Source: Epilithonimonas arachidiradicis
GTDB lineage: Bacteria > Bacteroidota > Bacteroidia > Flavobacteriales > Weeksellaceae
Direction: 5' to 3'
Assembly (NCBI RefSeq): GCF_003610695.1
Contig: NZ_RAQH01000005.1
Coordinates: forward strand, 1 to 64,000
DNA length: 64,000 bases
Shown: piece by piece, positions 11,634 through 53,810 of the stretch
How positions within the stretch are numbered: position 1 is the first letter of the stretch
How the letters are laid out: every line of letters starts with the position of its first letter
Notes under the pieces: generated by a model
Seen by the model: the letters and a program-made list of their open reading frames with translations, nothing else
The model's database searches: none
Told to the model about the DNA's origin: nothing
Position numbers and translations under genes: made by a program

Positions 11634-11677
11634 CCAGACACCACAGGACAATCACAACTCCCATTTATTTTAAATTG
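11634..11677 (+). promoter_or_regulatory. Regulon site 1: direct-repeat operator and -7 box before GH105
   Basis: 16-bp element at 11634-11649 matching CAGGACAGTGCAGGAY at 11 of 16 positions (proximal half CAGGAC perfect), then exactly 21 nt, then TAAATTG at 11671-11677. One of seven such modules in the window. Predicted transcription start near 11684 supports the ATG at 11706 rather than the one at 11688. Confidence 0.65.
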
Positions 11678-11705
11678 CGATAGATCAATGTCAAAATTTA
11701 AAATA

Positions 11706-12959
11706 ATGAATATCATAAATCATAAAATCAAAATCCTTTCTTTCATAACTTTAAGTTCGGGATTATTCTTTATTTCTGCTCAATCAAAAATTTCGACAAA
11801 AACAGAAACTCCAAAATCACAATCAGTAAAAGTTGTTCCCACCAATCTAAAATGGTCAGAGAGAATGATGCTTTCCGAGATGCATCGTTTCCCGGAAGCT
11901 TGGATGTTAGATTTCAGCAAAAGTCCAAAATGGACTTATCCTTCTGCAATTGTATTAGACGGCGCAGAAAAACTCTATGCAAAAACCGGGAAGAAAGAAT
12001 ACTATGATTACATCAGCGAATTTGGAGAAAAATTGATTAAAGATGACGGAACAATTCTCACCTATGAGTTAGAAAAGTACAACATCGATATGCTGAATAG
12101 CGGAAACGTATTGCTTTATCTTTACGAAAAAGAGAAAAAAGAAAAATATCTGAAAGCGCTTCAAACCTTACGCTTACAAATCGATGGACAGCCAAGAACT
12201 AAAGAAGGTTCTTTCTGGCACAAAAAAATTTATCCTTATCAGGTCTGGTTGGACGGTCTTTATATGGGAATGCCTTTCTACACGCATTATACAAAAGATT
12301 TCACAAAAGGCTCAGATGCTCTTAAAGCATATGATGACATTGTTTTTCAGTTTGATTCCGTTCAGAAAAATCTTTTAGACAAAAAAACAGGATTGCTTTA
12401 TCACGCTTGGGACGAGAGCAAAGAACAAGCTTGGGCCAATAAAGAAACAGGATTGTCTCCTAATTTTTGGGGCAGAGCGATGGGTTGGTATGGGATGGCG
12501 ATGGTTGACGTTCTGGATTTTTTGCCTAAAGATCATCCTGGAAGAGCAAGAATCATATCTTATATCAAATCTTACGCAGATGCTGTAATCAAAGTTCAGG
12601 ACAAGAACTCCGGACTTTGGTATCAGGTTTTGGATAAGCCTTTGGAAAAAGGTAATTATGAAGAAGCCAGCGCTTCTGCAATGTTTGTTTATACCATTAT
12701 AAAGTCTGTGAACGAAGGCTATTTGCCACAATCTTACAAAGCTGCTGCTAAAAAAGGTTATGATGGGATTATCAAAAACTTAATCACAGTCGACGAAAAT
12801 GGTGTCGTCAATCTTAATAAATGCTGTGCTGTTGCAGGCTTAGGTGGAAAGCCGTACAGAGATGGTTCTTACGAATACTATGTCAATGAAAAAATCCGTT
12901 CCAATGACGGTAAAGGAACTGGTCCATTTATTTTGGCAAGTCTAGAATTCGAGAAATAA
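11706..12959 (+). CDS. GH105 unsaturated rhamnogalacturonyl hydrolase
   Basis: 417 aa from the ATG at 11706; the ATG six codons earlier would sit almost on the predicted transcription start. Signal peptide ending SGLFFISAQS, then an (alpha/alpha)6 barrel of the YteR/GH88-GH105 type: PKWTYPSAIVLDGAEKLY, YELEKYNIDMLNSG, the YPYQVWLDGLYMGMPF box with the conserved Asp, and FWGRAMGWYGMAMVDVL. These enzymes release the 4,5-unsaturated galacturonic acid left at the end of oligosaccharides by lyases such as PL11. The signal peptide suggests periplasmic action. A second GH105 (40576-41736) is a lipoprotein version. Confidence 0.9.
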   Translation: MNIINHKIKILSFITLSSGLFFISAQSKISTKTETPKSQSVKVVPTNLKWSERMMLSEMHRFPEAWMLDFSKSPKWTYPSAIVLDGAEKLYAKTGKKEYYDYISEFGEKLIKDDGTILTYELEKYNIDMLNSGNVLLYLYEKEKKEKYLKALQTLRLQIDGQPRTKEGSFWHKKIYPYQVWLDGLYMGMPFYTHYTKDFTKGSDALKAYDDIVFQFDSVQKNLLDKKTGLLYHAWDESKEQAWANKETGLSPNFWGRAMGWYGMAMVDVLDFLPKDHPGRARIISYIKSYADAVIKVQDKNSGLWYQVLDKPLEKGNYEEASASAMFVYTIIKSVNEGYLPQSYKAAAKKGYDGIIKNLITVDENGVVNLNKCCAVAGLGGKPYRDGSYEYYVNEKIRSNDGKGTGPFILASLEFEK

Positions 12960-14752: not shown

Positions 14753-14759
14753 TTTCACA

Positions 14760-14803
14760 ACCGACAGTGCAGGATAATCAATTCTTATATTTATTTTAGA
14801 TTG
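14760..14803 (+). promoter_or_regulatory. Regulon site 2: operator and -7 box before GH28
   Basis: Element at 14760-14775 matches CAGGACAGTGCAGGAY at 13 of 16 positions; 21 nt later TAGATTG at 14797-14803. About 40 nt of leader precede the GH28 ATG. Confidence 0.7.
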
Positions 14804-14844
14804 CAGTACATATAAATAATCTGATATTTTGAATCTAAATCCTT

Positions 14845-16248
14845 ATGAAAAAATATATTCCATTCTTGTTCGCATTGGTTTTGTCCGTGGCCCTTTCGGC
14901 ACAATACAAACCCTGGACTTCCGCAAAACAGCCTTTAAAAGAAATCAAAGCTTTAAAAAAGCAAATCAAAAAACCCGAATTCAGGAAAGTTGATTACCTG
15001 ATTACCGATTTCGGTGCGGTTGGAGATGGAAAAACAAAAAATACGGAAGCTTTCAAAAAAGCGATTGAAAAATGTAATGCAGAAGGCGGCGGAAGAGTTG
15101 TCGTTCCAAACGGCGTTTTCTTAACGGGAGCAATTTATCTTAAATCGAATGTGAATCTTCATTTGAGCGATGGTTCTACGATTTTATTCAGTCAGGACAG
15201 CAACGACTACCCTATCGTTTTCACACGTTGGGAAGGAATGGAATGTATGAATTATTCATCTTTGATTTACGCTTACGAAGAAGAAAACATTGCCGTAACC
15301 GGAAAAGGAACTTTAGATGGAAATTCTGATAATGACAATTGGTGGTTTTGGTGTGGCGCTACAAAATATGGTTATAATGAATCTCGTCCGGGAAGACAAA
15401 ATCCTGCACGAGCAAAACTTCACGAATATATGGCGCAGAGAAAACCTGCAAGAGAAAGAGTTTTCGGGGATGGATGGTATTTAAGACCGAATTTTGTTCA
15501 GCCTTACAAGTCGAAAAACTTTTATATGGCGGATGTTTTGGTTAAAAATTCTCCAATGTGGAATTTGAATCCTGTTTTGTGTGAAAATGTTTTAATTGAA
15601 AGAGTAAAAGTCATCAGTCACGGACCAAACAACGACGGTTTCGACCCTGAAGCCTGTAAAAATGTCTGGATTAAAGATTCCTATTTCGACACAGGTGATG
15701 ACTGTATCGCCATTAAATCAGGACGAGACGAAGACGGAAGAGACATCGGAAGACCTGCCGAAAACCACATCATCGAAAACTGCGAAATGAAAGATGGTCA
15801 CGGCGGAGTCGTTATCGGAAGCGAAATCGCAGGTGGAGCAAAAAACATTTATGCCATCGGAAATGTGATGGACAGTAAAAATCTTGATCGTGCTTTAAGA
15901 ATTAAAACCAGCTCAAGCCGTGGCGGAATTATCGAAAATGTATTTTTCTACAATACAAAAGTAGGTGCTTACAAAGAAGCAGCCATTCGTTTCAATATGC
16001 ATTATGAAAAGCCGGGAAATCACATTCCGACGATGAGAAATATATGGGTTGAAAATCTAACCGTTGACAAAGGTGGAAAATATGCCGTATTTTCTGATGC
16101 TTACGAATCCTCCCCAGTAACCGATTTCACAATGATTAATGCTAAAATGGTGGGCGTTCAGATTCCTTACAAAGTGGATTATATGAAAAACGTGACGCTG
16201 AAAAATGTAACCGTTAACGGACTACCATTAACTGAGTTAAAACCGTAA
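14845..16248 (+). CDS. GH28 polygalacturonase
   Basis: 467 aa, signal peptide MKKYIPFLFALVLSVALSAQ. Right-handed beta-helix glycosidase with the GH28 set in order: NND (residues 262-264, in GPNNDGFDPEA), DD 285-286 in DTGDDCIAIKSGRD, GHG 318-320 and RIK 352-354. The N-terminal DFGAVGDGKTKNTEAF box is the common start of the fold. The exact pattern looks like the exo-acting galacturonidase group rather than the endo group, but that is a judgement from motif style. It hydrolyses galacturonic acid linkages in pectin. It has its own regulon-type promoter. Confidence 0.93.
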   Translation: MKKYIPFLFALVLSVALSAQYKPWTSAKQPLKEIKALKKQIKKPEFRKVDYLITDFGAVGDGKTKNTEAFKKAIEKCNAEGGGRVVVPNGVFLTGAIYLKSNVNLHLSDGSTILFSQDSNDYPIVFTRWEGMECMNYSSLIYAYEEENIAVTGKGTLDGNSDNDNWWFWCGATKYGYNESRPGRQNPARAKLHEYMAQRKPARERVFGDGWYLRPNFVQPYKSKNFYMADVLVKNSPMWNLNPVLCENVLIERVKVISHGPNNDGFDPEACKNVWIKDSYFDTGDDCIAIKSGRDEDGRDIGRPAENHIIENCEMKDGHGGVVIGSEIAGGAKNIYAIGNVMDSKNLDRALRIKTSSSRGGIIENVFFYNTKVGAYKEAAIRFNMHYEKPGNHIPTMRNIWVENLTVDKGGKYAVFSDAYESSPVTDFTMINAKMVGVQIPYKVDYMKNVTLKNVTVNGLPLTELKP

Positions 16249-22536: not shown

Positions 22537-22580
22537 CAGCACAGTGCAGGACGATTTAATAGGACTAAGATAATAACTTG
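22537..22580 (+). promoter_or_regulatory. Regulon site 3: operator and -7 box before pectate lyase
   Basis: Element at 22537-22552 (CAGCACAGTGCAGGAC) matches the consensus at 15 of 16 positions; 21 nt later TAACTTG at 22574-22580. Sits between a terminator and the lyase gene, as a promoter should. Confidence 0.75.
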
Positions 22581-22597
22581 TTCATTCATTAACAGTT

Positions 22598-26428: not shown

Positions 26429-26509
26429 AATTGGTTGGTGGTTGTTGGTTGATTGTTGTTGGTTTTTGAGATTTGCTATCAACTGACAACTATCAACCAA
26501 CAACAAAAT

Positions 26510-27895: not shown

Positions 27896-27959
27896 TCCTG
27901 AAAATGAATTTAATAATTGTATGAAAGTATAAAAATGGAATTTCCGAATCTTATGCTTT

Positions 27960-28040
27960 CAAATTAAAAACAATTAAGGAGTGTTTAGAATTAAGGAAAA
28001 TCATTACTAGTGAAACTTAGTATCCTAAACACCCTTAATT
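27960..28040 (-). other. Long hairpin between rhaI and rhaB (terminator or processing site)
   Basis: Arms 27972-27988 and 28025-28040 are reverse complements apart from one bulged base (core GTGTTTAG/CTAAACAC). On the minus strand the second arm is followed by a T-rich stretch TTGTTTTTAATTT. It could end or attenuate the rhaI message before rhaB. Confidence 0.5.
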
Positions 28041-28118
28041 AAAATAAAAATAAGTGGTTTATTTTTCAAACTTTCAAATTATAAGATGAAAGTTATTTCT
28101 ATCATATTAGGTAGGACT

Positions 28119-29399: not shown

Positions 29400-29415
29400 A
29401 TTTTGATTTTTGATT

Positions 29416-37019: not shown

Positions 37020-37053
37020 ATGTTAATTTTTAGTAATATTAAATTAATACTGC

Positions 37054-38479: not shown

Positions 38480-38502
38480 AATTAATCTGATTGTTGAATC
38501 TG

Positions 38503-38546
38503 AAAATTAACAAGACGAAACCGATTGCGCATCTTGTTCTGTCCTG
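38503..38546 (-). promoter_or_regulatory. Regulon site 6: operator and -7 box before rhaT
   Basis: Minus-strand CAGGACAGAACAAGAT (38531-38546), 13 of 16 matches, followed after 21 nt by TAATTTT (38503-38509). Here the distal half-site is the perfect one. Confidence 0.7.
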
Positions 38547-40336: not shown

Positions 40337-40497
40337 TAAAATAACTTTTAAGTAAAAAAGCAACAGGCTGATTTTTAATTCAATTCTAAAAAATTGAGAA
40401 ACATATCTGGGATTTTCCATAAATGCATACTATTGATTTAATATTCATAGACTGTTGTTTTTAAAATGAACGGACTTAATCCGAATACAATTGTTAT

Positions 40498-40546
40498 TTA
40501 AAAAAGGCTTTAATCAAAACTTATTATTGGTTTTAACTAAAGCCTT
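40498..40546 (-). terminator. Terminator of the GH105 gene
   Basis: Stem AAGGCTTTA (40504-40512) with TAAAGCCTT (40538-40546), extended inward by imperfect AT pairs, followed on the minus strand by six T. Lies 30 nt after the GH105 stop. Confidence 0.7.
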
Positions 40547-40575
40547 ATTCTATTGATATTTAATTTAATGCTTAA

Positions 40576-41736: not shown

Positions 41737-41781
41737 TATATTTATTTTATTTTTATTAAGTCGATTTTGAATTGATGATAA

Positions 41782-43659
41782 TTACTTTGCTTTTACATTA
41801 AAAATGTTCGGATTAGGAACACTTTTCACCGATTCATCCAAATAATAATCCGTATGTGGCGGTTGATTATATCCTACATTTTGCCAGACGATACTCAATC
41901 GATACTGAGGATTATGCATCAAAGTATACAAACGATGTTTTGTCGGAATCGTTGTACTGAAAATCCTTAATTCCTGATTATCGGCTGTTCTATATATCAC
42001 TTCTTCCCTCCAATCTCCGAATAAATCGGCAACCAGACCCGGGTTTTTCTTTGTTCCGTTATTCGATTCGCATTGGAAATTTTTAGCATCAAACATCACA
42101 TTTGATTTCTCTTTTTTCCAGTCCCATTTTGAAACAACCGTTCCATCTAAGATTTCGCTCAAAAAATCACCATCCCAATAAATCCCCATATTTGCAGGTG
42201 GATTTTTATCGCTAATTTTTTTTCCTTTTGAGCTATAAACTCCTTTCAATCCGGCTCCTGTCGCCCAACATTCCGAACCTTCATAACGGGGATCGATGTT
42301 TAATGACAAACCTCTTCCCGGACCCTGAAATTTACTTGCCTGACTGTAAACTGTTGATGGTAATTTCCACAAAACCTTTCCGGTTTTCCCATCTCTGAAA
42401 TGCGCTCCCGCATCATCAAACCTCTCCTGAATATCAAAAATTTCCAATCCCGGATTTGAAGGATCCAAATCTCCAACGTGCAAAGCATCCCCGTGACCAT
42501 AACCTGTGCTGTTCAATACTTTTCCGTCATCATCAACCGTCATTGCTCCGAAAATAATTTCATCTTTTCCGTCATTATCGACATCGGCAATGCTCAGATT
42601 ATGATTTCCCTGTCCGCGGTATTGTTTGTTTTCTTCTGAACTTTCGGTATCAAAAAGCCAGCGAAGACTGAGTTTTCCGTCTTTAAAATCCCAGGCTGCA
42701 ATCGCAGTTCTCGTGTAATAACCTCTCGACATAATCACACTCGGCGTTTTTCCGTCGAGATAAGCGACAGCTCCCAAAAACCGGTCGATGCGGTTTCCTT
42801 TGGCGTCGCCCCAAGTTTCGGTCATTTCTTCATTGGTAGGATTTAAACTTCCTGCAAATCTGGGAACCTGATAATTGACTGTGTTTATTTCTTCACCTGT
42901 TTCTCCATTAAAAACCGTTAGAAATTCCGGTCCGGAAAGAATCATTCCGTTTTCGTTGACGTAATTTTTGGTTGGATCTCCAATAAATTTTCCTTTTCCG
43001 TCTTTGCTTCCGTCGGCGGTTTTCATCACGATTTCCGCTTTCCCATCTTGATCTAAATCATACACCAAAAACTGCGTATAATGCGCTCCTTCCCTGATAT
43101 TTTTACCTAAATTGATTTCCCACAAAAACTGTCCGTTCAGTTTATAAGCCTGAATAATCGGCGGATCTGTTTCTCCTTTCTGACTGTTGTCGTGAGATCT
43201 TCCGGTTTGATGAAGGATGATTTCGTATTCGCCGTCGCCATCTAAATCCGCAATTGAAGCGTCATTCGGAGTGTAACCTTCAGGTGTTTTCAATGGAATT
43301 GAAAAATAAGGTTTTTGATTGGCTGTGTACTTTGCAAAATCTTGGTCAACGTCCTGATGTTGCGTATTTGATTTTACGAAATAAGTGTAATTCTTTCCTT
43401 TGTCAGCGGTTTTATCTAAAAAATTGGTTTCGTTGAGTAACGGCTTTTCATTCAGCTTTTTGGTCTGATTATTTTCTGTGCGATACACATCAAAATGAGT
43501 ATTCTGAGCTTCCGTTCCCAGCAAACGCCAACTTATAAAAACGCCTGATTCTGCAGGAATCGCAACGATTCCTCTTTTCAGGTACTCCATTTGTCTTTGC
43601 GCAAAGAATGTTTGCGAAAGAAAAATAGCGGATGTAATGAAGATATATTTGATTTTCAT
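41782..43659 (-). CDS. Rhamnogalacturonan lyase (PL11)
   Basis: 625 aa, signal peptide ending FLSQTFFAQ. PL11 (YesW/YesX type): the N-terminal fibronectin-like part starts RQMEYLKRGIVAIPAESGVFISWRLLG in style, followed by an eight-bladed propeller with repeated calcium motifs (DLDGDGEYEI, DLDQDGKAEI, DVDNDGKDEI), plus HQTGRSHDNS, GEGAHYTQ-like REGAHYTQ, KTADGSKDG and the C-terminal GDWREEVIYRTADNQELRIF box. It cleaves the rhamnose-galacturonic acid backbone of RG-I by beta-elimination. It probably acts with the GH105 just downstream. Confidence 0.95.
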   Translation of the reverse strand: MKIKYIFITSAIFLSQTFFAQRQMEYLKRGIVAIPAESGVFISWRLLGTEAQNTHFDVYRTENNQTKKLNEKPLLNETNFLDKTADKGKNYTYFVKSNTQHQDVDQDFAKYTANQKPYFSIPLKTPEGYTPNDASIADLDGDGEYEIILHQTGRSHDNSQKGETDPPIIQAYKLNGQFLWEINLGKNIREGAHYTQFLVYDLDQDGKAEIVMKTADGSKDGKGKFIGDPTKNYVNENGMILSGPEFLTVFNGETGEEINTVNYQVPRFAGSLNPTNEEMTETWGDAKGNRIDRFLGAVAYLDGKTPSVIMSRGYYTRTAIAAWDFKDGKLSLRWLFDTESSEENKQYRGQGNHNLSIADVDNDGKDEIIFGAMTVDDDGKVLNSTGYGHGDALHVGDLDPSNPGLEIFDIQERFDDAGAHFRDGKTGKVLWKLPSTVYSQASKFQGPGRGLSLNIDPRYEGSECWATGAGLKGVYSSKGKKISDKNPPANMGIYWDGDFLSEILDGTVVSKWDWKKEKSNVMFDAKNFQCESNNGTKKNPGLVADLFGDWREEVIYRTADNQELRIFSTTIPTKHRLYTLMHNPQYRLSIVWQNVGYNQPPHTDYYLDESVKSVPNPNIFNVKAK

Positions 43660-43707
43660 AAACCTTATAAGTTTTGGCTAAAGCCGAATTTGAAACCTCA
43701 TTTTTTT

Positions 43708-43727
43708 AAACGGGCTGAAGCCCGTTT
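43708..43727. repeat. Small palindrome AAACGGGCT-GA-AGCCCGTTT
   Basis: Perfect 9-bp arms with a 2-nt loop in the PL11 upstream gap. A TTTTTTT run precedes it on the plus strand. Part of a cluster of repeats between the PL11 gene and the gene upstream of it. Confidence 0.6.
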
Positions 43728-43754
43728 CTATTGATTTAATTGTTATTGATTCTA

Positions 43755-43787
43755 ATCCTTGTCAAGGTTTTGAACCTTGACAAGGAT
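43755..43787. repeat. 33-nt perfect palindrome, copy 2
   Basis: Identical over 33 nt to 29416-29448 and followed within 16 nt by copy C of the ~90-bp repeat. On the plus strand it is followed by TTTTT. Confidence 0.85.
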
Positions 43788-43802
43788 TTTTAAGTAGAAT
43801 CT

Positions 43803-43894
43803 CTCGCAGCCCGACTTGAGCGGAAATCCTTTTTGTGTAGCAAAGCGGAACAAAAAGATTGGGAGCGGAAGGCGGAAAAAGCTGCCCAAATAAT
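43803..43894 (+). repeat. Dispersed ~90-bp repeat, copy C
   Basis: CTCGCAGCCCGACTTGAGCG start, GTAGCAAAGCGGAAC core, GGCGGAAAAAGCTGCCCAAA end. Lies between the ThuA-like gene and PL11. Confidence 0.8.
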
Positions 43895-43931
43895 TCTAAT
43901 TACACAAATTCAATCGATTGCGCATATCGCT

Positions 43932-44735
43932 TTATTTTTTGGAAACTTGTTTCAGCAACCACTTCACCCACTCTTCAGTTCCCTGATAATTGGTAAAATC
44001 TGCCGGAAGTTTTTTGCCGTCGATATACTCGTTGTAGCACCACGGATCTCCCAATGCGAAAACGGTTCCCTTACCGACTTTTGCAATCGCTCCTATGCTT
44101 TTACCTTCTGCCGTCAAAATGGCTTTGGCAGGAGCTTTTACGTCCATCGAACTTACTTCTTTCATATATAATTTTTGCTCGGAGAAAATCTCGTTTCCAG
44201 CCGGAACCATTACTTTTCCCTGCTCAAATTCCCTTTTCTGAACGCGGTTGTAACTGTCATCATTAAAATGAATCCCGAATTCTCCCGCCAATTTGTTGAA
44301 ATGTTCAAACTCAGAATTGCCGTTGTCGTTGCTCATCAAAACCAAAACACCGCCTTTTTTCACCCATTCTGTAAGGTTTTTGATGGAATTAGCGTCAATC
44401 AAATTGGCTTTTCCTCCGTACGCTTCTTTGTCGATATCGGGATCAACGATGATATAAATATTAGCGTTTTTCAAGTCTTTTTTGGAAGGAGCCGTCGTTA
44501 AAGTACTGATTTCTGCACCTTGTTTTTGGAAGATTTCGCCGAGCAAAGAAAATCCTCCGTTGGAAGTGTCGTTCCACGTGTAATGCCAAGATTCCAGAAC
44601 TTTGGTTTCTTTATTTTCCTTTTTTTCGTTGTTGAAAAAGTTATCCAAAACAACTTTCGGTTTGTTTTGGGCATTGGTAAATCCGAATGTGAAAAGTGTT
44701 CCTAATGCTAATGTTTTTACGATATTCTGCTTCAT
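43932..44735 (-). CDS. Secreted ThuA/glutamine-amidotransferase-like protein
   Basis: 267 aa with signal peptide (cleavage near GFTNAQ). Rossmann-like class I GATase fold: VVLDNFFNNE, SWHYTWNDTSNGGFSLLGEIF, NIYIIVDPDIDKEAYGG, WVKKGGVLVLMSNDNGNSEF and a C-terminal GKGTVFALGDPWCYNEYIDG. No catalytic Cys-His-Glu triad of true amidotransferases is apparent. From memory, similar domains occur fused to unsaturated rhamnogalacturonyl hydrolases in other Bacteroidota; here it stands alone next to PL11 and GH106. Its biochemical role is unknown; binding or processing of lyase products is a guess. Confidence 0.65.
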   Translation of the reverse strand: MKQNIVKTLALGTLFTFGFTNAQNKPKVVLDNFFNNEKKENKETKVLESWHYTWNDTSNGGFSLLGEIFQKQGAEISTLTTAPSKKDLKNANIYIIVDPDIDKEAYGGKANLIDANSIKNLTEWVKKGGVLVLMSNDNGNSEFEHFNKLAGEFGIHFNDDSYNRVQKREFEQGKVMVPAGNEIFSEQKLYMKEVSSMDVKAPAKAILTAEGKSIGAIAKVGKGTVFALGDPWCYNEYIDGKKLPADFTNYQGTEEWVKWLLKQVSKK

Positions 44736-44890
44736 AAATATTTATTTAATATTTTAATTCAATCTATTTCTCTACAATTTTTAACGCAAAGTCCGCAAAG
44801 TTTTTTTAACTACTAACTGTTTTTAAGTTCGCAAAGGCGTTTCACTTAAATAAGAATACAAAAATTGTTAATTGCAGACTGTCATTAAAA

Positions 44891-47662
44891 TTATTTTGAG
44901 AAATATACAGGAATTAATTGAATTTCGCCATCTAAACCTGAAGGTTGTACTTTCCAGTTGGAAGCATCGAACGTCTTGTAATCGATGTTGACAAAATTAA
45001 TTTCGTGGTAATTTCGCCATTGGATTTTATTCTGGTCCATATAACGGATTCGGTTGGCCATCAGGTTGGAAACCTCAATCTGAATGGTATTTTTTCCTTT
45101 TTTCAAATATTTTCCAACGTTGATTTCAAACGGAAGACTCCAAACCATTCCCGCATCTTGTCCGTTGATGATGACTTTTGCACTTTCATATAATTTGTCA
45201 AATTTCAGTATAAAATCGTCGGCTTTTTTATTTAATTTGAATGAAGTTGCGTAAACTCCTGTTCCTGAAAAACTCTGTGTGGATGTATCTTCTGTGAAAT
45301 TCGTCCAAGGTTGAAGTTTATCCAATGTTTTTGATTTCGGAAGTTCGGGTCCGCCTTCTTTGAAAGTCAGTTGCCAAGGTTGGTTTAAAACAATCGGAGC
45401 ATCTGTTTTTTCAACATATTTCCATTTTGGAATTGAATTATCTGGAGTTTCCGAAGCTTTTATAATCAAAGATTCTCCTGATTTCAGTTGAACTTTAACG
45501 GAATTGTTCTGCGTTTCAGCAATTCCAAATTCTCCGTTTTCAGGATTCATCAAAGCAACTTGTTTTCCTGAATAATTTAATGGAATATTTTGATTAATTT
45601 CTTTTGAAGTATGATTGACAATGTAATAATATTTTCCGCCATCGAACTTTTTTCTGATAAATTTTAATCCTGTATCCGTCAGCTTTTCTCTTTCAATTTT
45701 TAAATATTCTAAAGCTTTTTCAACATCAGAACTCAATACAATTTTTCCTTTTCCGAATGTTGCCGATTTTAAATTTCCGTCTTGCTGAAAAGGAATTTTA
45801 GTCCATAAAGACTGCAATTCGTTTCTTCTTTTTTCAAATTCAAAAAATCCCGGAACGTCTTTTGGCTCACTTTGAAAAATTACCGAAGCTCCATTCTGAG
45901 CTAAATTTAAAATATTTTTCAACGTTGGTTCTGAAAAATAATTCAGTTGAGGAATAATCAAAACTTTATAAGAACCACCATTTTCCGAAACCTGAATATT
46001 CTGATTTTCAAACTTCGCTTCACCAATCATTTTATCCGAAATCATATCGAGAGAATAGCCGGATTTTCCTAATTTCTCAAGATTTTCATAAAATACAGTC
46101 GGATGCAGCCACTTTTCAATATTATGAATTTTGAAAGCCATATCTTTCCCTTTTGGATTTGCCCATTGGTCATAAATCGGCCAATACATCAGGATTTCAT
46201 TATCCGATTTTCCACTTTGTAAAACCGATTGTGTTCTTTCGACGTAAGAATTTAAACCTTTAATATTCGGCCACAAAGAATTCTCCGGAACGAAATTCGT
46301 CGAAGCATAAAACAACCAGCCCGGAAACTGAACATTAGCGGGCGTATACGTCGTTCCGTGATAAAAAATGTGATTGATTCCTGATAAAAAAATCTGCTCA
46401 GCTTCCGGTTTTACCTGTGACCAAGACGTTTTGAAATGTTCCGTTAGCCAAGTAAAAGATTCATTGGAAATCAAAGGCTTTCCGGTAATATTTGCCGCCG
46501 AAGAAGCAAATTTCAACATATTGATATCGGGAACTTCCTTTGTATTAATGTCTTCCAGATTTCGTTTTAAACCTTCAATATCAAATTTTGTACTTCCGAA
46601 AGTTTCAGATTCAGGAATATCGACTGCAGCATATAAATCCAGCAAATTCCCCGGCGAACCGTGTGCCTGATTGGTATTTTGGGAGTTTTTTGAATGCGCC
46701 CAATTCGTAAAGTTTTCTGTGAAATTATGTAAAATCAGTTCACTCATTGTTTCACGATAATCTGATTTTATTCTTCCTGCCAATTCGCTTTCTTCATCGC
46801 TCACCAAATATTTGATATACTGACTTAAATCGTAACCTCTTCTTTTCTTAAATTGTTCTTTAAAATCGGCAGTCCAGTCGGCACCGTAAACCTCATAACT
46901 GTCATTGAAAAACGAACGGATTCCATAGTTTGAATTTCCAAAAGCTTTGTCAAATGTTTTCAGATAATCTTTCGTTGCATCGGGAGAAAAATGGTCTAAC
47001 GTATAGCCATCGCCACCCGGAGCGGCACGTTTTACTTTCTGTAAGGTTTTGCCAACAAAAACTGCGTAAATAGTCCATTTTCCTGAAGTCGGTTTCCAGT
47101 TTAAAGTTCCGTCTTGAGCTACTTTATCTGTTAAGACAACCGCTTCATTTTTCTCGTTGTAAGCGGTAACGATATCCAAGTTTATGGTTTTTAAATTCTT
47201 CTGTTTTTCGTCTTTTAAAACAATCTTCTCAGAAAATTTTTCATTGGGCTGAATGCTGTAAGTCTGAACAATCATTTTGGTTGCAGCATCATTTTCATCA
47301 ACCTGCGGTCCGCCAATTGGCCAACCTGTTCCGACTGCCATATCAACGCCCATTTTCAGACTTTTTGCTTTATCTGTCGTGAACTGCAGCATTTTCATCC
47401 ATTCCGGAGAAAGATAATTGATGTATTTATTTTCAAACCCTTTTGCGCCATAAATCGGGACAATTTCTACTCCACCGAAACCTGCCTTGGAAAGGGTTGT
47501 CAATTGCTTGTCTAAACCTTTTTCGTCAACGGCACTTCCCATCCACCACCAACGCGTCCACGGTTGAGCGGTATTGGTCGCTTTTGGCCACGGATTTTGT
47601 GCGGAAAGATTTCCGAAGGCAAAACAGAGAACGCTGAGTTTGACTATATTTTTAATTTTCAT
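44891..47662 (-). CDS. GH106 alpha-L-rhamnosidase
   Basis: 923 aa with signal peptide (ending FGNLSAQ). The N-terminal GH106 hallmark TRWWWMGSAVDEKGLDKQL is followed by LSKAGFGGVEIVPIYG and MAVGTGWPIGGP. A long central catalytic barrel includes FFNDSYEVYGADWT and ISNESFTWL. The C-terminus is a galactose-binding-like beta-sandwich (FDKLYESAKVIINGQDAG, GKNTIQIEVSNLMANRI). It releases L-rhamnose from rhamnogalacturonan oligosaccharides or side chains, feeding RhaT and the Rha enzymes. Confidence 0.93.
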   Translation of the reverse strand: MKIKNIVKLSVLCFAFGNLSAQNPWPKATNTAQPWTRWWWMGSAVDEKGLDKQLTTLSKAGFGGVEIVPIYGAKGFENKYINYLSPEWMKMLQFTTDKAKSLKMGVDMAVGTGWPIGGPQVDENDAATKMIVQTYSIQPNEKFSEKIVLKDEKQKNLKTINLDIVTAYNEKNEAVVLTDKVAQDGTLNWKPTSGKWTIYAVFVGKTLQKVKRAAPGGDGYTLDHFSPDATKDYLKTFDKAFGNSNYGIRSFFNDSYEVYGADWTADFKEQFKKRRGYDLSQYIKYLVSDEESELAGRIKSDYRETMSELILHNFTENFTNWAHSKNSQNTNQAHGSPGNLLDLYAAVDIPESETFGSTKFDIEGLKRNLEDINTKEVPDINMLKFASSAANITGKPLISNESFTWLTEHFKTSWSQVKPEAEQIFLSGINHIFYHGTTYTPANVQFPGWLFYASTNFVPENSLWPNIKGLNSYVERTQSVLQSGKSDNEILMYWPIYDQWANPKGKDMAFKIHNIEKWLHPTVFYENLEKLGKSGYSLDMISDKMIGEAKFENQNIQVSENGGSYKVLIIPQLNYFSEPTLKNILNLAQNGASVIFQSEPKDVPGFFEFEKRRNELQSLWTKIPFQQDGNLKSATFGKGKIVLSSDVEKALEYLKIEREKLTDTGLKFIRKKFDGGKYYYIVNHTSKEINQNIPLNYSGKQVALMNPENGEFGIAETQNNSVKVQLKSGESLIIKASETPDNSIPKWKYVEKTDAPIVLNQPWQLTFKEGGPELPKSKTLDKLQPWTNFTEDTSTQSFSGTGVYATSFKLNKKADDFILKFDKLYESAKVIINGQDAGMVWSLPFEINVGKYLKKGKNTIQIEVSNLMANRIRYMDQNKIQWRNYHEINFVNIDYKTFDASNWKVQPSGLDGEIQLIPVYFSK

Positions 47663-47947
47663 TTTTTAACTTTTATTTTTTAACCACAAAAGGCACAAAA
47701 GTTTGACACTTTAGTTATTTTTAAGTTTGTGATTCGACTTTTGAAAAGAACACATAAGTTTTAAAAATTCAAAGATTTTTTTCTTTATTTCAACATTAAG
47801 AAATTAAGATTTTAAGATTCTTCTTAATGATTCTTATCTAAATCAATTTATTAGTTCTTAATTTTAATATTTATGTCAATTCTTAAATCCTTAATGTTAA
47901 AAAGAATAAACTTTGTTTATTTGATTAAGCTTATTAAGTCCAAAATT

Positions 47948-49270
47948 TTAATTTCCATCAGGTTTTAAAGATTCCATAAAAACAGATTCTGGCCAATGGA
48001 ATTTTTCGACATCATCGGGTTTGTTGAGGTTAAAATTTTTATAATTTTTTGAAATGTATTTCTTTAAAGGTAAGTTTTGGTCGACAATAGATTTTACGAC
48101 ACATTTCGCCAATTCATAAGCTCCGTACGGATTAAAATGTGTATCGTCCGCCAAAGCATTCGGTTGATTGGGGTAAGCGTTTGCGGGATAATAGACAAAT
48201 GCTTTTTTCGCCGCTTCCGGTCCCATTGCTTCGAACAATGTTTTGCTTGATGCATTTAAATCTATTAAATCCACTCTTTCTTCTTTTGCAATCTCCCGCA
48301 TTGCATCAGGAAAATCGTCTAAAGTGTTGACAATTTTATTATTGTCATCAAAAACTCTGCGGTTCATCGAAGTGACCAAAACCGGAATTGCACCCAATTG
48401 TTTAGCCTTCTGAATCCATTCTTTTAATCTTTTTCTGTAACCCGATTTTGTGCTGTTTCCCGCTTTTTGGTCATTGTGACCGAATTGGATAAATAAATAA
48501 TCTCCCGATTTTATTTGAGTCCAGATTTTATCGATTCGGTGGCGGTCTTCGAATGCTTTTAAGGTTTCACCGCTCTCGGCATAATTAGCAATCACCACTT
48601 CATTCGGAACGAAAAAGTACGGTAACATTTGTCCCCAAGAAGCCCACGGCTCGTATTGTGCATCAACAACCGTTGAATCACCCGTTAAATAAATGGTTTT
48701 TGCTGTTTTGTTGGGTTGAATAATGATCGAACACACTTTCGGAGCTTTATCATTGAATTCAATCGTCAGCAAATTATCCCAATGCAAATATTTTGTTTCT
48801 CTTGGTTTTAATTTTACCATTCCGATTTTTTCGCCGTTTTGATTTCTGATAATGCTATCTTTTACGTGAACGGTGATTGTTTTTTCAACAATTTCGCCTT
48901 GCTTGGTTTTGATATCATTTAACATCAATCGGCGGTTTTCTACACGGACTGTTGTTTCTGAAGTTCCTTTTGTATCACCTAAATTCAGTTGAATATCATA
49001 GTTCCCTTCAGGAATTGCTACCGAAAAATAGAAAGGTTTGTCGCTCGTGATAAAATCTCCCGTCAAAGCATTCCCGCCGTTGTCAACAGATTTTAAACCC
49101 GAAATATCCATAAAACCATAGCCAATTTTCCTGTCAAATTTTGAAGTCGAATGAATTGGAATAAAACCTTTTTCTACTCTTTCTCCGCCAAAATCAAATT
49201 TGAAGCTGGTTTGCTGTCCAAAATATAATGAACAGATAAGCATTACTAAAAATGATAATTCTTTTTTCAT
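47948..49270 (-). CDS. Two-domain rhamnogalacturonan acetylesterase (CE12)
   Basis: 440 aa with signal peptide (ending SLYFGQQ). Residues about 20-185 form a beta-sandwich of the galactose-binding type seen in front of CE12 domains (FKFDFGGERVEKGFIPI). Residues about 190-420 are the SGNH esterase: IYLTGDSTVVDAQ with the nucleophile Ser, NYAESGETLKAF, IQFGHNDQKAG and DDTHFNPYGA. It deacetylates RG-I. It starts 2 nt after the GH2 gene and is tightly coupled to it. Compared with the single-domain CE12 at 13087 it has an added carbohydrate-binding-like part. Confidence 0.92.
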   Translation of the reverse strand: MKKELSFLVMLICSLYFGQQTSFKFDFGGERVEKGFIPIHSTSKFDRKIGYGFMDISGLKSVDNGGNALTGDFITSDKPFYFSVAIPEGNYDIQLNLGDTKGTSETTVRVENRRLMLNDIKTKQGEIVEKTITVHVKDSIIRNQNGEKIGMVKLKPRETKYLHWDNLLTIEFNDKAPKVCSIIIQPNKTAKTIYLTGDSTVVDAQYEPWASWGQMLPYFFVPNEVVIANYAESGETLKAFEDRHRIDKIWTQIKSGDYLFIQFGHNDQKAGNSTKSGYRKRLKEWIQKAKQLGAIPVLVTSMNRRVFDDNNKIVNTLDDFPDAMREIAKEERVDLIDLNASSKTLFEAMGPEAAKKAFVYYPANAYPNQPNALADDTHFNPYGAYELAKCVVKSIVDQNLPLKKYISKNYKNFNLNKPDDVEKFHWPESVFMESLKPDGN

Positions 49271-49272
49271 TA

Positions 49273-52128
49273 TTAATCCGTCAAAATATTTTCTTTTGGC
49301 ATTGTAAACTGTTTATTTTCATCGCCTAAATCCGGCAATCCAAAATAGAAATATAAGGTTCTTTTAAACGTTCCGTTCAAATGATTCGGTTCGCTTTCCC
49401 GTCCTAAAGATTCGGTTTTATCGTTAATGTTAAACGCCAAAACAGTTCCCAACGGCGGAATCGCATCGAGGAAAGAAATATTCCCGCCTGGCAATTTCGG
49501 ATAACCTTCAGCTCCATAAATTCCGTAAAAATCGAAAAGTCTGGCGAACATTTTTTCTTCTTTGGTTCCAATCGTAATTTTTCCTTCGGCTGTATCCAAT
49601 TGCAACCACGAAACATCATCAAAATAGCCTTTAAATTCAGTATAAAGCCAAGGAGATTGTCCGGTTCTTGTTGAGTTTTTCAAATTCTGCCAAACATTGT
49701 AAGTCTGTCCCTGAGTTCTGTTTTTCCAAACGTGATAAGGGCCTTTTCCGAGCCATTTTGCATTGATGACGTAATTTTCAGGATAGTCAAAACTTACACC
49801 TGAAAATTGGTAATCTCCCGACAAAGAATATTCATAATTTAATTCTAAAACTCCGTTTGGATTGAGCTTCCAAATGATTTTATTTCCGTTTTTGTAATTA
49901 ACTTCAATCAGTTGATTTTTTCCTTCTGCAAAAGATTTTATCGATGATAATTCCATTGTGCCGTTCACGAAAACAGGACCGTTTTTGAAGGTCATTTTTT
50001 TGCCTTTTTTATCGATAATCACAGATTTTAATAAGCCGTCCTTTTTTCCGATGGCAAATTCTTTTTCGTCTGATTTTAAAATAAATTCAGCATCATTTTC
50101 AGTCACAGAAACCGGAAATTCTTTAATTAAAGATTTTGAAAACTGTTTTGAAATTTCATCATTAGCTTTTAATTTCCAAGTCCAGGTATAAATTTCTTTT
50201 CCGAAAGAATCGGTTGCCGTTAATAACAAACCTTCATTTTCTTTCCAGTTTGAAGGAAGATTTAAATTGATAGTTCCTTTTTCTGTCGGTTGAATATTTG
50301 GGGATTCTGCTTTTCCTGTTTTAATAATATCAAAACCTGATTCAGAAGAAAATGGAGTTTTAAACTTAATTAATTTCCATTCAAACTGACAATCTTTTAA
50401 ATTCGTAAAATGATAACGGTTTTCAACAGGAATATTTCCGTTAAAATCGTTTGGTAACGATTTCAAATCAATTTTTACCGGACTGTAAATTTCACGAATG
50501 GCGTAAAAACTTCCTTCTTTTTCACGATGTGGCCCTAAAACTCCATCGGGAGCGTTGATGGCGTTAACATCAATCTGATTATTGAAATCCGTTCGTACCA
50601 AACCTTCATCTACAAATGCCCATAAAAAACCTCCCGCACCTTTTTTGGAATTCCAGTGAAGTTCCCAATAATCGGCTAAAGAAGTTCCGCCACCACCGTC
50701 GTCCTGTGCGTGTAAAAACTCGGTCGGCATATAAATATTTTCGCCTTCGAGGATATTTTTTGTGCTGTAATAATCTTCGTAATGATTGCAGTCGATGCCG
50801 TTGAAAGCATTTCCAGGTTTGTGATGCGCGTGAATGACTGGACGATTCGATAAGTCGTATTTTGCAAATTCTGCATCCAAATCAAAATTATGTCCGCCTT
50901 CATTTCCGTTGCTCCAGAAAATAATAGAAGGATGATTGGCATCTCTCGTAACCATTTCTTTCACGAGCTTTTTCCCGACTTCTGTGCTGTATTTTTTTTG
51001 CCAACCCGCCAATTCATCCAAAACATATAAACCTAGTGAATCGCAAATCTTTAAAAATGATTTATTCGGCGGATAATGAGAGCAACGAACGGCATTCATA
51101 TTCATTTCTTTGATGAGCTGAACGTCCATTAAATCGATATTTTCCGTAACTGCTCTACCCGTTTCCGGCCACCAAACGTGACGATTGATGCCTTTCATTT
51201 TGACCTTTATTCCGTTGATGAAAATTCCGTCGCCTTTTCGGATTTCTATGGTTCTGAAACCGAATTTTTCTTCGGTTTGACTGATTGTTTTTTTGTTTTT
51301 ATTTAAAGTGAATTTAGCTTTGTATAAATTCGGTGTTTCGGCCGTCCAAAGTTTTGGATTTTTAACCGAAAGCTGAATCAGTTTTAAAGTATCTCCTTTT
51401 TGAATCTGAACCTGAGATTCGCCAACCAGATTATTTTTAACATCAAATAATTCTACTTTCAAATTATTTGTGGAATTAATTCCTTTCAAGCTAATATTCG
51501 AACGGAAAGTTCCGTCTGCTTTAGCATCAATTACCGTTGATGAAATATGTTCTTTCGAAGTTGCTTCCAAATAAACGGGTCGAAAAATTCCGCCTAAAAT
51601 CCAGTAATCTGCTAATCTTTCTGCATTGTTGACCGATTTATCAGCCGACATTTTGGAAACTTTTACTTCGAGAATATTTTCTTTTCCGAACTGAATTTTA
51701 TCCGAAATATCATATTTAAATTCATAAAAAGCACCCTGATGAATGGCTCCTGCCGATTTTCCATTGATTTTCACTTCGGTGTCGGTCATTGAACCTTCAA
51801 AAACGATGTTAATGCTTTTTCCTTTCCACGAATTGGGAACGGTGAATTTGTGTTTGTACAAACCTGTTTCTTCGTGAAACTTGAAGTTTTTGCCATACGT
51901 TACATAATCCCGACCGTAATTATAGGAACCGAAACCTTGCTGTTCCCAATGTGAAGGCACATTGATTTTGCTCCAGCTTCCCGATTTTCTACCGGAGTTT
52001 ATCCAAAAATCCCATTCTTTGGTGTGTTCAGCATCTTTCCCAGTTAAGAATTGAATTTCTTTAGACTGAGAAAACAAAAACTGTGAACAGACACATAACA
52101 GAGCTAATATTTTGAAAGAAAAACTCAT
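49273..52128 (-). CDS. GH2 beta-galactosidase-type enzyme
   Basis: 951 aa with signal peptide (QFLFSQS). GH2 layout: sugar-binding jelly roll (NVPSHWEQQGFGSYNYG), immunoglobulin-like domain, TIM barrel with GINRHVWWPETGRA, CSHYPP, acid/base Glu in SNGNEGGHNF and nucleophile Glu in MPTEFLHAQDDGGGG, then C-terminal beta-galactosidase small-chain-like domains. In RG-I loci such enzymes remove beta-linked galactose from backbone branches. The start codon overlaps the GH28 stop by one base (TAATG). Confidence 0.92.
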   Translation of the reverse strand: MSFSFKILALLCVCSQFLFSQSKEIQFLTGKDAEHTKEWDFWINSGRKSGSWSKINVPSHWEQQGFGSYNYGRDYVTYGKNFKFHEETGLYKHKFTVPNSWKGKSINIVFEGSMTDTEVKINGKSAGAIHQGAFYEFKYDISDKIQFGKENILEVKVSKMSADKSVNNAERLADYWILGGIFRPVYLEATSKEHISSTVIDAKADGTFRSNISLKGINSTNNLKVELFDVKNNLVGESQVQIQKGDTLKLIQLSVKNPKLWTAETPNLYKAKFTLNKNKKTISQTEEKFGFRTIEIRKGDGIFINGIKVKMKGINRHVWWPETGRAVTENIDLMDVQLIKEMNMNAVRCSHYPPNKSFLKICDSLGLYVLDELAGWQKKYSTEVGKKLVKEMVTRDANHPSIIFWSNGNEGGHNFDLDAEFAKYDLSNRPVIHAHHKPGNAFNGIDCNHYEDYYSTKNILEGENIYMPTEFLHAQDDGGGGTSLADYWELHWNSKKGAGGFLWAFVDEGLVRTDFNNQIDVNAINAPDGVLGPHREKEGSFYAIREIYSPVKIDLKSLPNDFNGNIPVENRYHFTNLKDCQFEWKLIKFKTPFSSESGFDIIKTGKAESPNIQPTEKGTINLNLPSNWKENEGLLLTATDSFGKEIYTWTWKLKANDEISKQFSKSLIKEFPVSVTENDAEFILKSDEKEFAIGKKDGLLKSVIIDKKGKKMTFKNGPVFVNGTMELSSIKSFAEGKNQLIEVNYKNGNKIIWKLNPNGVLELNYEYSLSGDYQFSGVSFDYPENYVINAKWLGKGPYHVWKNRTQGQTYNVWQNLKNSTRTGQSPWLYTEFKGYFDDVSWLQLDTAEGKITIGTKEEKMFARLFDFYGIYGAEGYPKLPGGNISFLDAIPPLGTVLAFNINDKTESLGRESEPNHLNGTFKRTLYFYFGLPDLGDENKQFTMPKENILTD

Positions 52129-53501
52129 TATTTTGCAGCGATGTCGGAGTCATCTTTTTTATCGTAGGATTGTGTAAGAGAAGCTACTTTCGTCACATTG
52201 ACTTTGGTTTGCTTTAAATTTTGAATGTTGCTTAAATTTTCTATTTCGGGCTTTAAAGCTTTGATTTTTAAGTTCTCAAAAGTGAAATCCTTTAAATCAA
52301 ACAAATCAGATTTTTCAATAGAGAATGCTGTTTCGCAACTTAAATCTATATTTTTGATGGTAATATTATTTGCCAATCCTTTTCTCGGTCTTGCTTCGCC
52401 TTTCAAATCAAAAAACTGATTCCAGCCTTTAGCGTAAATGAAAGTTTTTACGTTTCCTTTGATATTGTCTAAAGTGATGTATTCGTAGTGCTGAGGCGTG
52501 TCCGGACGCATTTTCAAGTGTAATAATCTTGAAGCGTCTTTCACGGTAGAATTTCTGAAAATAACGTTGTAATTGTGAATCGATTCGCTTCCGCAAGTCA
52601 ATGCAGAATGACAGAATCCGAAAGTGTTGTCTTCAATTAAAATGTTTCTATTTTCTCCGTTATTTGGGTCTGTATCTGCTTTTGGACCTTTTCCACCTTT
52701 TAAAGCAATCGCATCGTCATTCACCGACATATAACAGTTTTTCACCAAGAAATTTGAACAGGCATCGATGTCAATAGCGTCTGTACTTGGTGCTTTTACA
52801 GGTCCTTTCGGCGCTAAAATTGTTAAGTTTAATAATTTTACGAATTGGGACTTATAATAATGCGTGCTCCAGAAGGGTGAATTTTTCACTGTAATTCCTT
52901 CAATCTGAATATTTTTTGAATTGGAAACGTAGATAATCCTAGGTCGCATTTCGTCCATATTGGTACATTTAGGATTCCATTCTCTTCTTTTCCAGAATGA
53001 TTTCCAGAATCTTAAACCATTTCCGTCCAAAGTTCCTTTTCCTGAAATTGTAAAGCCGTCTAATCCGTCTGCATTAATCAAAGCCGGAAAATATTTTACG
53101 GTCTGACCTTCCATTCTTGTTGTCACCACAGGAAAATCGTTGATATCATCGCTTCCTTTTAATTTTGCTCCGGTTTCTAAATGTAAATGCGTTCCCTGTT
53201 TAAAGAAAAGGGAACTGATGAGGAAGGTTCCTTTTGGTATGACAATGACACCTCCGTTTTTTGAAGCTTCATCAATGATATTTTGAACCTGTTTTGTCTG
53301 AAGAATTGTGCTATCGTTCTTTACTCCAAAATCTGTGATGATGTATTTCTTGCCTAATTTATTGATATCTGTTGGTTTGTTTTCTTTAAACCATTTCGGA
53401 ATGGCGGTTCCGTCGGGAAATTTGTCCTGACTTTTTAATCCTGAAAAAGAAAAAAGAAGTGAAAAAGTTAAGAAAAGCTTTGATATATTTTGAAATGTCA
53501 T
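52128..53501 (-). CDS. GH28 glycosidase, divergent active-site pattern
   Basis: 457 aa with signal peptide (LFSFSGLKSQ). Beta-helix GH28 protein: ITDFGVKNDSTILQTKQVQ, GTLDGNGLRFW, STDAIDIDAC, NDDAIALKGGKG, then CHSALTCGSES where GHG is expected and LLHLKMRPDT where RIK is expected. The two Asp and the His stay, while the NTD, GHG and RIK boxes are altered. This points to a GH28 subgroup acting on rhamnogalacturonan rather than homogalacturonan, unlike the canonical GH28 at 14845. It is the first gene of the GH28-GH2-CE12 operon driven by regulon site 7. Confidence 0.88.
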   Translation of the reverse strand: MTFQNISKLFLTFSLLFSFSGLKSQDKFPDGTAIPKWFKENKPTDINKLGKKYIITDFGVKNDSTILQTKQVQNIIDEASKNGGVIVIPKGTFLISSLFFKQGTHLHLETGAKLKGSDDINDFPVVTTRMEGQTVKYFPALINADGLDGFTISGKGTLDGNGLRFWKSFWKRREWNPKCTNMDEMRPRIIYVSNSKNIQIEGITVKNSPFWSTHYYKSQFVKLLNLTILAPKGPVKAPSTDAIDIDACSNFLVKNCYMSVNDDAIALKGGKGPKADTDPNNGENRNILIEDNTFGFCHSALTCGSESIHNYNVIFRNSTVKDASRLLHLKMRPDTPQHYEYITLDNIKGNVKTFIYAKGWNQFFDLKGEARPRKGLANNITIKNIDLSCETAFSIEKSDLFDLKDFTFENLKIKALKPEIENLSNIQNLKQTKVNVTKVASLTQSYDKKDDSDIAAK

Positions 53502-53810
53502 AATCGATTTTGTATAGCTAATAAACGAATTTAAAAGTAGAAGTTTTCTGATTGAAAGGTATCCTGCGCTCTCCTGACAATAAAAATCAGATAAGTTTTT
53601 ACAAACAATTTGTGATGTTACAAGAGAAATAAAGCGCCGTCATAACGCCTTTTAGCAAAGAAAATGATGATTTTCTTTGTTTAGCTTTAGATATTGGTGA
53701 TAATAATAAAGTCGGAATCTTAAATTTAATCGCAACCTTATGATTTCTGATATGCAGCCAAAGAAACAACAAAACTTATAATTTGTATTTTCCTTTACAG
53801 CCTATTGGAT
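53502..53810. other. 309-bp gap between the GH28 operon and the two-component system
   Basis: Holds regulon site 7 near the GH28 start. In the remaining ~230 bp I see only AT-rich sequence and no ORF or RNA. There is a short TTGGATTTAATCCAA palindrome at the end of the response-regulator gene (53805-53819). Confidence 0.6.
53533..53576 (-). promoter_or_regulatory. Regulon site 7: operator and -7 box before the GH28-GH2-CE12 operon
   Basis: Minus-strand CAGGAGAGCGCAGGAT (53561-53576), 14 of 16 matches, two CAGGA half-sites 10 bp apart; 21 nt later TACTTTT (53533-53539). About 30 nt to the GH28 ATG. Confidence 0.75.

Follow-up and report, generated by a model that had tools for sequence, protein, structure and literature searches.

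A conserved tandem-repeat element before the rhamnose and rhamnogalacturonan genes of Epilithonimonas arachidiradicis and its candidate GntR-type regulator

We analysed a stretch of 64,000 nucleotides (the window) from Epilithonimonas arachidiradicis, positions 1 to 64,000 of contig NZ_RAQH01000005.1. Seven upstream regions of its pectin and rhamnose locus carry a short repeated element at a fixed distance from a -7 promoter box. The element is genuine and strongly conserved. As a regulon site it is of an ordinary kind; what is unusual is the combination of regulator type, repeat geometry and reach. An earlier note on this DNA had claimed that one operator/promoter module unites the locus, and our results support this for the rhamnose and rhamnogalacturonan genes. 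Sequence comparisons point to a likely regulator of the elements, the GntR-type product of gntR (24105..25151, plus strand, from its presumed ATG), which we call RhaR. With slightly better than even confidence, we propose that the element is the binding site of this sugar-sensing protein, which combines a GntR winged helix with a LacI-type core, and that the protein activates transcription in place of a -33 element.

Direct re-reading of the window found all seven 16-mers at the positions and on the strands that the earlier note had given, and their matches to its consensus were again 11, 13, 15, 12, 15, 13 and 14 of 16. On the plus strand, element 1 (CCAGACACCACAGGAC, 11634..11649) lies 5' of a GH105 gene with its -7 box TAAATTGC at 11671..11678, element 2 (ACCGACAGTGCAGGAT, 14760..14775; box TAGATTGC, 14797..14804) lies 5' of a GH28 gene, and element 3 (CAGCACAGTGCAGGAC, 22537..22552; box TAACTTGT, 22574..22581) lies 5' of a PL1-like gene with gntR behind it. 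The other four are on the minus strand: element 4 (CAGTATAGTACGGGAT, 31776..31791; box TAATTTTG, 31747..31754) precedes rhaEW, element 5 (CAGGACAATGCAGGAT, 37082..37097; box TACTTTGG, 37053..37060) precedes susC-susD, element 6 (CAGGACAGAACAAGAT, 38531..38546; box TAATTTTC, 38502..38509) precedes rhaT, and element 7 (CAGGAGAGCGCAGGAT, 53561..53576; box TACTTTTA, 53532..53539) precedes a GH28-GH2-CE12-GH106-PL11-GH105 run. The box stands exactly 21 nt past the end of the element at all seven sites, as had been claimed. All seven boxes read TAnnTTK, the type of the Bacteroidota primary-sigma -7 box (TAnnTTTG).

The element was found in the same places in other species. The named-species scan took the best 80 of 542 confirmed loci, among them 34 Chryseobacterium/Epilithonimonas-type loci (L085-L118), presumably Weeksellaceae. 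In these, the element with its box at exactly 21 nt was present before rhaT in 34/34, susC in 32/32, rhaEW in 29/29 and GH28 in 3/4 of the loci where the gene occurs, which bears out the conservation that the earlier note had asked to be checked. The rhaEW count searched 400 bases with a match rule loosened after the rhaEW variant was seen, and the earlier rule, used in the spacing count below, also gives 29; when 250 bases were searched, 11 of 26 rhaEW upstreams yielded a site. Flavobacterium rhaT is preceded by AAGGAYAGTACAGGAY with 22 nt spacing in 3/3 loci. Among the other loci, mostly Chitinophagaceae and Sphingobacteria, the rhaT element stood at 21 or 22 nt in 27 of 42, typically as CATGAYAGTNCATGAY, and no rhaT element was found in the remaining 15. 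Shuffled upstreams passed the rhaT-element rule at 0 to 0.12%. One of the 80 loci was omitted from the rhaT count outside Weeksellaceae for its short upstream.

Closer relatives gave the same picture for most of the locus. RhaT is present in 10 of 23 genomes of the genus, our own included, and the 38-40 kb around rhaT hold largely the same genes in nine RhaT genomes and in G041, which belongs to another genus. In these ten relatives the orthologues again have the element upstream, in most cases with TAnnTT at 21 nt. The plus-strand cluster is on a separate contig in G015 and G009, and G020 and G003 have insertions. Exceptions are susC of G012 and of G014, and an additional susC in G020 and G003, where the element is present and the box at 21 nt differs by one base (TAACATT, TAGTATT). 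The GH105 and GH28 orthologues of G015, G009 and G019 have the element upstream with a box at 21 nt, so elements 1 and 2 have counterparts there. When the rhaT, susC, rhaEW and GH28 upstreams were aligned, the element, the two following bases (mostly GC) and the -7 box were conserved, for rhaT the spacer too; no comparable conserved block was seen upstream of the element in these four orthologous promoters. One further locus, L043 in G021, has a GH28 fragment (about 123 aa matched) that keeps an element with its box in a genome without RhaT or GntR matches, and is apparently a relic of the locus.

We then asked how specific the element and its spacing are. TAnnTTK starts made up 0.99% of positions in the 150-nt upstreams of 24 window genes (the seven promoters included); the nominal probability of seven boxes in seven at one spacing is about 1e-14, or 1e-13 allowing any of 11 spacings, values which are only indicative because the sites had already been picked. 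Window positions matching the earlier consensus numbered two at 15, one at 14, two at 13, six at 12 and 26 at 11 of 16. Eleven positions thus score at least 12, and six of them, including the top five, are sites of the element; the GH105 element is among the 26 that score 11 and therefore rests on its spacing and on the relatives. A search of the whole genome (3.65 Mb) for the element followed by N21 and TANNTTK, with at most three mismatches, returned five places, all in the locus, and none in a backward-read control. Among unrelated upstreams, drawn from 400 kb of the same genome and both window ends, 1 of 236 had at least 11 of 16 matches and a box at 21 nt. The element with its 21-nt spacing is therefore not equally frequent before unrelated genes, the outcome that the earlier note had named as a refutation.

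A refined consensus with at most two mismatches hit six places in the genome, five in the locus and one at contig position 185894. This eighth element lies outside the window (G000, contig C5) with a box at 21 nt; sites nearly identical to it stand 5' of a second PL1-like gene in G015 and G009. Further matches to the refined consensus are G009:C5:191041, G014:C1:2499870 and G020:C21:222917. Those in G006, G007 and G008 and one of two in G019 were set aside, as they look like chance in 3-kb loci without a homologue of a window gene.

For a matrix scan we used 13 distinct sequences. They came from 69 sites upstream of rhaT, susC and rhaEW in 29 loci, all in other species and none in the window. 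These are 29 of the 34 loci above; five recognised congeners were omitted, and others may be unrecognised congeners. Five of the seven sites took ranks 1-5 among about 128,000 window positions, with scores of 16.7 to 22.8. The GH105 and GH28 elements scored 10.8 and 9.9 and ranked 11 and 18, both with a box at 21 nt, and ranks six to ten had no box at 15-27 nt. On the 400 kb, two positions reached a score of 14 and none reached 16, none of these with a box, while 72 positions reached 9.5, one with a box at 21 nt. Over the 80 loci (1.47 Mb), 109 element and box pairs were spaced 21-22 nt, and six other spacing pairs gave 1 to 6 each. This count required A at positions 2 and 12, as did the choice of element promoters for the TTG comparison below, which left out rhaEW-type sites; without the A requirement the sum was 143.

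The core of the element is two tandem CAKGAYAG units 10 bp apart, the second copy ending in GC in Weeksellaceae. Of the 16-bp element with two half-sites 10 bp apart described earlier, the 10-bp period stands, and the length is nearer 18 bp. Across 36 distinct non-Weeksellaceae sites, eight positions carry the same base as the position 10 further on in a fraction of 0.67 to 1.0 of the sites, and inverted complementarity reaches a mean of 0.41 at best. For 90 Weeksellaceae sites the direct agreement is 0.62-1.0 over six positions and 0.08-0.34 over the next two, with inverted complementarity of 0.45 over seven pairs. We rejected a palindromic site, which the direct repeat outscores in both sets, and a CATG-N6-CATG palindrome in the CATG variants, where the repeat goes on in direct orientation through GAYAG. 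We also rejected another half-site lying 21 bp further upstream, in the style of AraC regulators and hybrid two-component systems (HTCS), since none is conserved. Several relatives have an inverted repeat ACAAGATG...CATCTTGT in the rhaT promoter between the second half of the element and the -7 box. In the window rhaT promoter (38502-38546, minus strand) one arm is CGTCTTGT, and the repeat is possibly an extra half-site.

A centre near -41.5 is the classical place of a class II activator. In Flavobacterium psychrophilum the TAnnTTTG box was placed at -12 to -5 (PMC9723704). Taking the box here as -12 to -5 by analogy, the 16-mer would lie at about -49 to -34, centred at -41.5 and overlapping or replacing the -35/-33 element. 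A TTG 18-22 nt before the box was found in 0/7 window promoters and in 0/102 element promoters of other species; it was present at 22/108 control TAnnTTTG sites of the same genome, with a peak at 19-20.

Five regulators encoded in the window were tested, and gntR alone is kept with the locus. It lies in the 38-40 kb loci of 6 of the 10 relatives and, in the other four, on the same contig beyond the fetched stretch (G003, G020) or in the split-off GH105/GH28 cluster (G015, G009). A LuxR-type regulator/TPR kinase pair (53811-56432), a sigma-54 activator and a TPR-AraC protein were rejected as the regulator, as they were not found in the loci of the ten relatives. The sole AraC-type gene seen (60909-62597) lies outside the locus, and there is no hybrid two-component sensor among the 36 frames scanned. 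The G015 gene has a stop at residue 339 of 352 (L074), and its product may end 14 residues early. In G009 the counterpart of element 3 stands directly 5' of gntR; this element with its box (L083, 15324-15339, minus strand) is about 330 nt from the gene with no long frame between, which fits a possible control of gntR by its own product.

The presence of GntR also followed that of RhaT and of the element. The 10 genomes of the genus (23 in total) with RhaT are the 10 with GntR, and in Flavobacterium gntR is divergent beside rhaT. Outside Weeksellaceae, gntR was found in 19 of 46 neighbourhoods, and AraC-like and TetR-like families in 2 each, counting the 25 commonest families as judged by their first residues. 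Among 295 genomes across the class, GntR homologues (E<=1e-30) occurred in 25, RhaT in 25 and both in 18. The element with its box was near rhaT in 13 of these 18, against 0 of the 7 genomes with RhaT in which no GntR was found. A looser count of 15/18 also takes in G300, which has the element without a box on the rhaT strand, and G401, with 12 of 16 matches and a box at 21 nt. For the 19 genomes with a close RhaT, Fisher's test gave p=0.004 (15/16 vs 0/3) or, strictly, p=0.02 (13/16 vs 0/3), with relatedness not removed. Two of the three misses with both proteins, G221 and G362, have only distant RhaT and GntR. Seven genomes have GntR without RhaT, one of them (G313) with an element-like site beside GntR. 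A GntR-type regulator is thus linked to the sites, as would be expected of a GntR-family operator. Upstream of rhaT in loci L206 and L207 (G300, G401), both strands carry copies of the element, as though each divergent gene had its own site. G072 encodes four homologues of the GntR/LacI-core protein (58, 51, 40 and 35% identity) and has another element near a CE12-type gene, a sequence that recurs in L156, L161 and L163.

The gntR product matches the GntR winged helix (E 7.5e-12) and, at 25.1 bits, falls just under the Pfam cutoff of 26.5 for Peripla_BP_3. Its AlphaFold2 model, built on a 24-sequence alignment, had a predicted local distance difference test (pLDDT) value of 88 and a predicted template modelling (pTM) score of 0.71. 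The best 50 Foldseek matches of the model were LacI-type sugar regulators and related binding proteins such as RbsR, at TM 0.5-0.6. The 15 PDB sequences matched were mostly GntR helix domains, including AraR (4egy, E 2.6e-7), and the product has the AraR-type architecture of a GntR winged helix and a LacI-type core. In the recognition helix, residue 61 of SRDT[V/A] is V in 7/7 rows in which the second half-site has G as its third base and in 3/19 rows in which it has T; all 16 rows without V have T. It was the column most associated with the half-site base among 75 tested (nominal p 1.8e-4). The set comprised 26 labelled rows with readable helix and element, in which L156 represents Flavobacterium, and G000 itself and its relatives are represented by G000; G147 was unreadable. 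G300 and G401, which were read and not labelled, have V with CAGG on the rhaT strand. The association is suggestive only.

We propose the following mechanism. The two tandem CAKGAYAG units, 10 bp apart, would place two DNA-reading domains on the same face of the DNA. Bound at -49 to -34, RhaR would take the place of the -33 contact that the primary sigma factor makes. The ligand suggested by the genetic context is L-rhamnose inside the cell, or a closely related derivative; it would change RhaR, and the sugar-bound form would recruit RNA polymerase to promoters with only a -7 box. Because every same-strand run, that of gntR included, starts behind an element, a single sugar signal in the cytoplasm would turn on import across the outer membrane, the breakdown of rhamnogalacturonan, and the uptake and catabolism of rhamnose. 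The earlier note had argued for a bound activator that replaces the -33 contact. The fixed place relative to the -7 box and the site at the -33 position stand; activation by a bound protein is what we infer, chiefly from the fixed spacing and the centre near -41.5.

Several observations weigh against this proposal. AraR shares the architecture of the GntR product and yet is a repressor, according to its PDB molecule name. The usual GntR operator is a palindrome, yGTM..KACr (PMC4494728), whereas our element is a direct repeat and not palindromic; tandem GntR sites exist (FarR, NagQ, NanR and MocR types) but are exceptional (PMC4494728, PMC5320631). The TTG enrichment in the control promoters is modest (22 vs 12 and 13 in the neighbouring five-spacing windows), and the absence of TTG from element promoters is partly forced because the element's own letters occupy the place. 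Among the 42 other named loci, the element is present in 13/17 with gntR in the fetched stretch and in 14/25 without, a weak association; in one of these 25, L125, gntR is on another contig. G228, whose recognition helix is changed (SRNTIDRA), has GntR and RhaT but no element. In G019 (88% complete) GH105 and GH28 are preceded by elements, and neither RhaT nor GntR was found there; its contig ends inside the cluster. The class-wide absences are not certain, as at most seven GntR or six RhaT candidates per genome were scored. As to the helix, columns 25 and 55 come close to residue 61, three V rows (L135, L153, G367) have T, and the association was first noticed by eye and is confounded by ancestry.

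The GntR-type RhaR might also be a repressor which sits on the element, blocks the -33 region and leaves on binding rhamnose. This would suit the architecture shared with AraR and the overlap with the promoter, where a bound protein would block the polymerase. Since TTG is only modestly enriched at -33 of control promoters, its lack is the weaker support for activation and no proof that an activator is needed. A repressor would not need a spacing fixed at 21 nt (22 in Flavobacterium) through 109 pairs in 80 loci; the lack of TTG 18-22 nt before the box in all seven promoters also speaks against repression. We consider repression doubtful; given GntR as the regulator, activation is about twice as probable, because the spacing is fixed over families and the centre lies near -41.5.

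Another regulator encoded elsewhere, of AraC, hybrid two-component or OmpR/PhoB type, could bind the element while gntR only travels along. Tandem 10-bp repeats near -33 would suit an AraC DNA-binding domain or a PhoB-like dimer. Elements also occur in the 14 loci mentioned above without gntR in the fetched stretch, and Bacteroides relies for these sugars on hybrid two-component systems and on a RhaR of the AraC type (PMC3878776, PMC3870299). Against this, the four other window regulators are missing from the loci of the ten relatives, repeats of about 21 bp characterise the AraC and HTCS motifs in the literature, and no other family occurs in more than 2 of the 46 neighbourhoods, although no genome-wide AraC or OmpR inventory was made. 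The genome-level co-occurrence and the residue-base association both point to GntR, and we think a different regulator unlikely. It is very improbable that weak look-alikes were assembled by chance or from shared promoter composition. Sites 1 and 2 are indeed weak by consensus and matrix rank, but both have counterparts in three relatives, every tested rhaT, susC and rhaEW upstream of L085-L118 has the element, and the whole-genome and spacing controls are near zero.

The genes of the locus were assigned by Pfam and NCBIfam among the 36 frames scanned. Each same-strand run starts behind an element, and we infer that these runs are operons. Behind element 1 lie GH105 (PF07470; 11688..12959), a GDSL esterase, CE12-type by context (13060-13821), and a second esterase (13841-14752), all on the plus strand. 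Element 2 is followed on the same strand by GH28 (14845..16248), a DUF4450/GH78-like gene (16486-20094) and a GH65-like gene (20334-22469). The run of element 3, also on the plus strand, begins with the PL1-like pectate lyase gene (22598..23986) and has gntR as its last gene. The gene names given earlier agree with Pfam and NCBIfam except 'PL1', which has no Pfam match and only a PelZ hit below the NCBIfam cutoff; this gene perhaps represents a divergent pectate lyase group. On the minus strand, the run behind element 4 (25277..31777) holds rhaEW (29621-31777), rhaI (28119-29444), a rhaB-like kinase gene (26510-27895) and a lactate dehydrogenase-like gene (25277-26506). In the stretch 31723-31777, the longest rhaEW frame begins on the last bases of element 4, and the true start is likely the ATG near 31723, behind the -7 box. 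Element 5 is followed by susC (33975-37019) and susD (31885-33954; run 31885..37019, minus strand) and element 6 by rhaT (37391..38479, minus strand), an L-rhamnose/proton symporter gene. Behind element 7 a single minus-strand run (38603..53501) encodes GH28, GH2, GDSL (CE12-type by context), GH106, DUF4350-like, PL11, GH105 and FG-GAP/PL11-like proteins. At the contig end, frame 9-530 resembles the end of a transposase or integrase gene.

A pattern spotted by eye has thus become a defined regulon with a named candidate regulator. A broader view, which we put forward tentatively and hold at somewhat less than even chance, is that across Bacteroidota a GntR/LacI-core protein, of a type known from repressors of palindromic sites, works as an activator: it would act on 10-bp tandem repeats at -41.5 that replace the -33 element. 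In Chryseobacterium/Epilithonimonas, on this view, the rhamnose switch has spread beyond the rha operon to take in the entire rhamnogalacturonan locus. If true, a cytoplasmic monosaccharide sensor would govern a polysaccharide locus where neither a hybrid two-component nor a sigma/anti-sigma system was found, and a single intracellular sugar signal may switch on the whole pectin and rhamnose pathway. The motif can be used for annotation in Chryseobacterium/Epilithonimonas, Flavobacterium and Chitinophagaceae, and it yields a candidate rhamnose-responsive promoter. The system also offers a test case for the activation of -7-box-only promoters in Bacteroidota and for the reading of tandem repeats by a GntR protein with a LacI-type core.

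Rhamnose regulators of AraC, DeoR and LacI type have been described (PMC3870299, PMC3878776), and the available parts of these two papers mention no GntR rhamnose regulator. The terms 'Flavobacter', 'Chryseobacterium' and 'GntR' are absent from the main text of PMC3870299, as is 'GntR' from that of PMC8056085. The earlier note knew of no published motif like this one, and our searches of open PMC text found no title or abstract that describes it; RegPrecise, supplements and most subscription papers lie outside that coverage.

AraR of Bacillus subtilis has the same GntR helix domain and LacI-type core as the gntR product and binds palindromic operators. NanR, FarR and NagQ have effector domains other than a LacI-type core. 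Together with MocR/PdxR/GabR, they use GntR helix domains to read direct repeats, and the effector domain of MocR is aminotransferase-like (PMC4494728, PMC5320631). The sequences of these tandem-site members also differ from those of the gntR system. FucR and ManR of Bacteroides are GntR-family sugar regulators, and the ManR regulon includes a SusC/SusD operon (PMC3878776); they act on sugars other than rhamnose. DeoR-family RhaR regulators have two direct repeats with a 10-11 bp period at rha genes, with sequences reportedly unique to each taxonomic group (PMC3870299); no DeoR-type gene was found among the 36 frames scanned. In B. thetaiotaomicron, HTCS_Rgu-1/-2 likewise place pectin-degrading enzymes and SusC/SusD under one regulator, but this is an HTCS sensor with repeats 20-21 bp apart (PMC3878776), and the 36 frames of our locus scan include no hybrid system. 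RhaR of the same species (BT3768) likewise controls rhamnose uptake and catabolism from a direct-repeat site, but it belongs to the AraC family, its repeat period is 21 bp and its reconstructed regulon is a single operon (PMC3878776, PMC3870299), whereas no AraC-type regulator was found in the locus described here among the frames scanned, and its repeats follow a 10-bp period.

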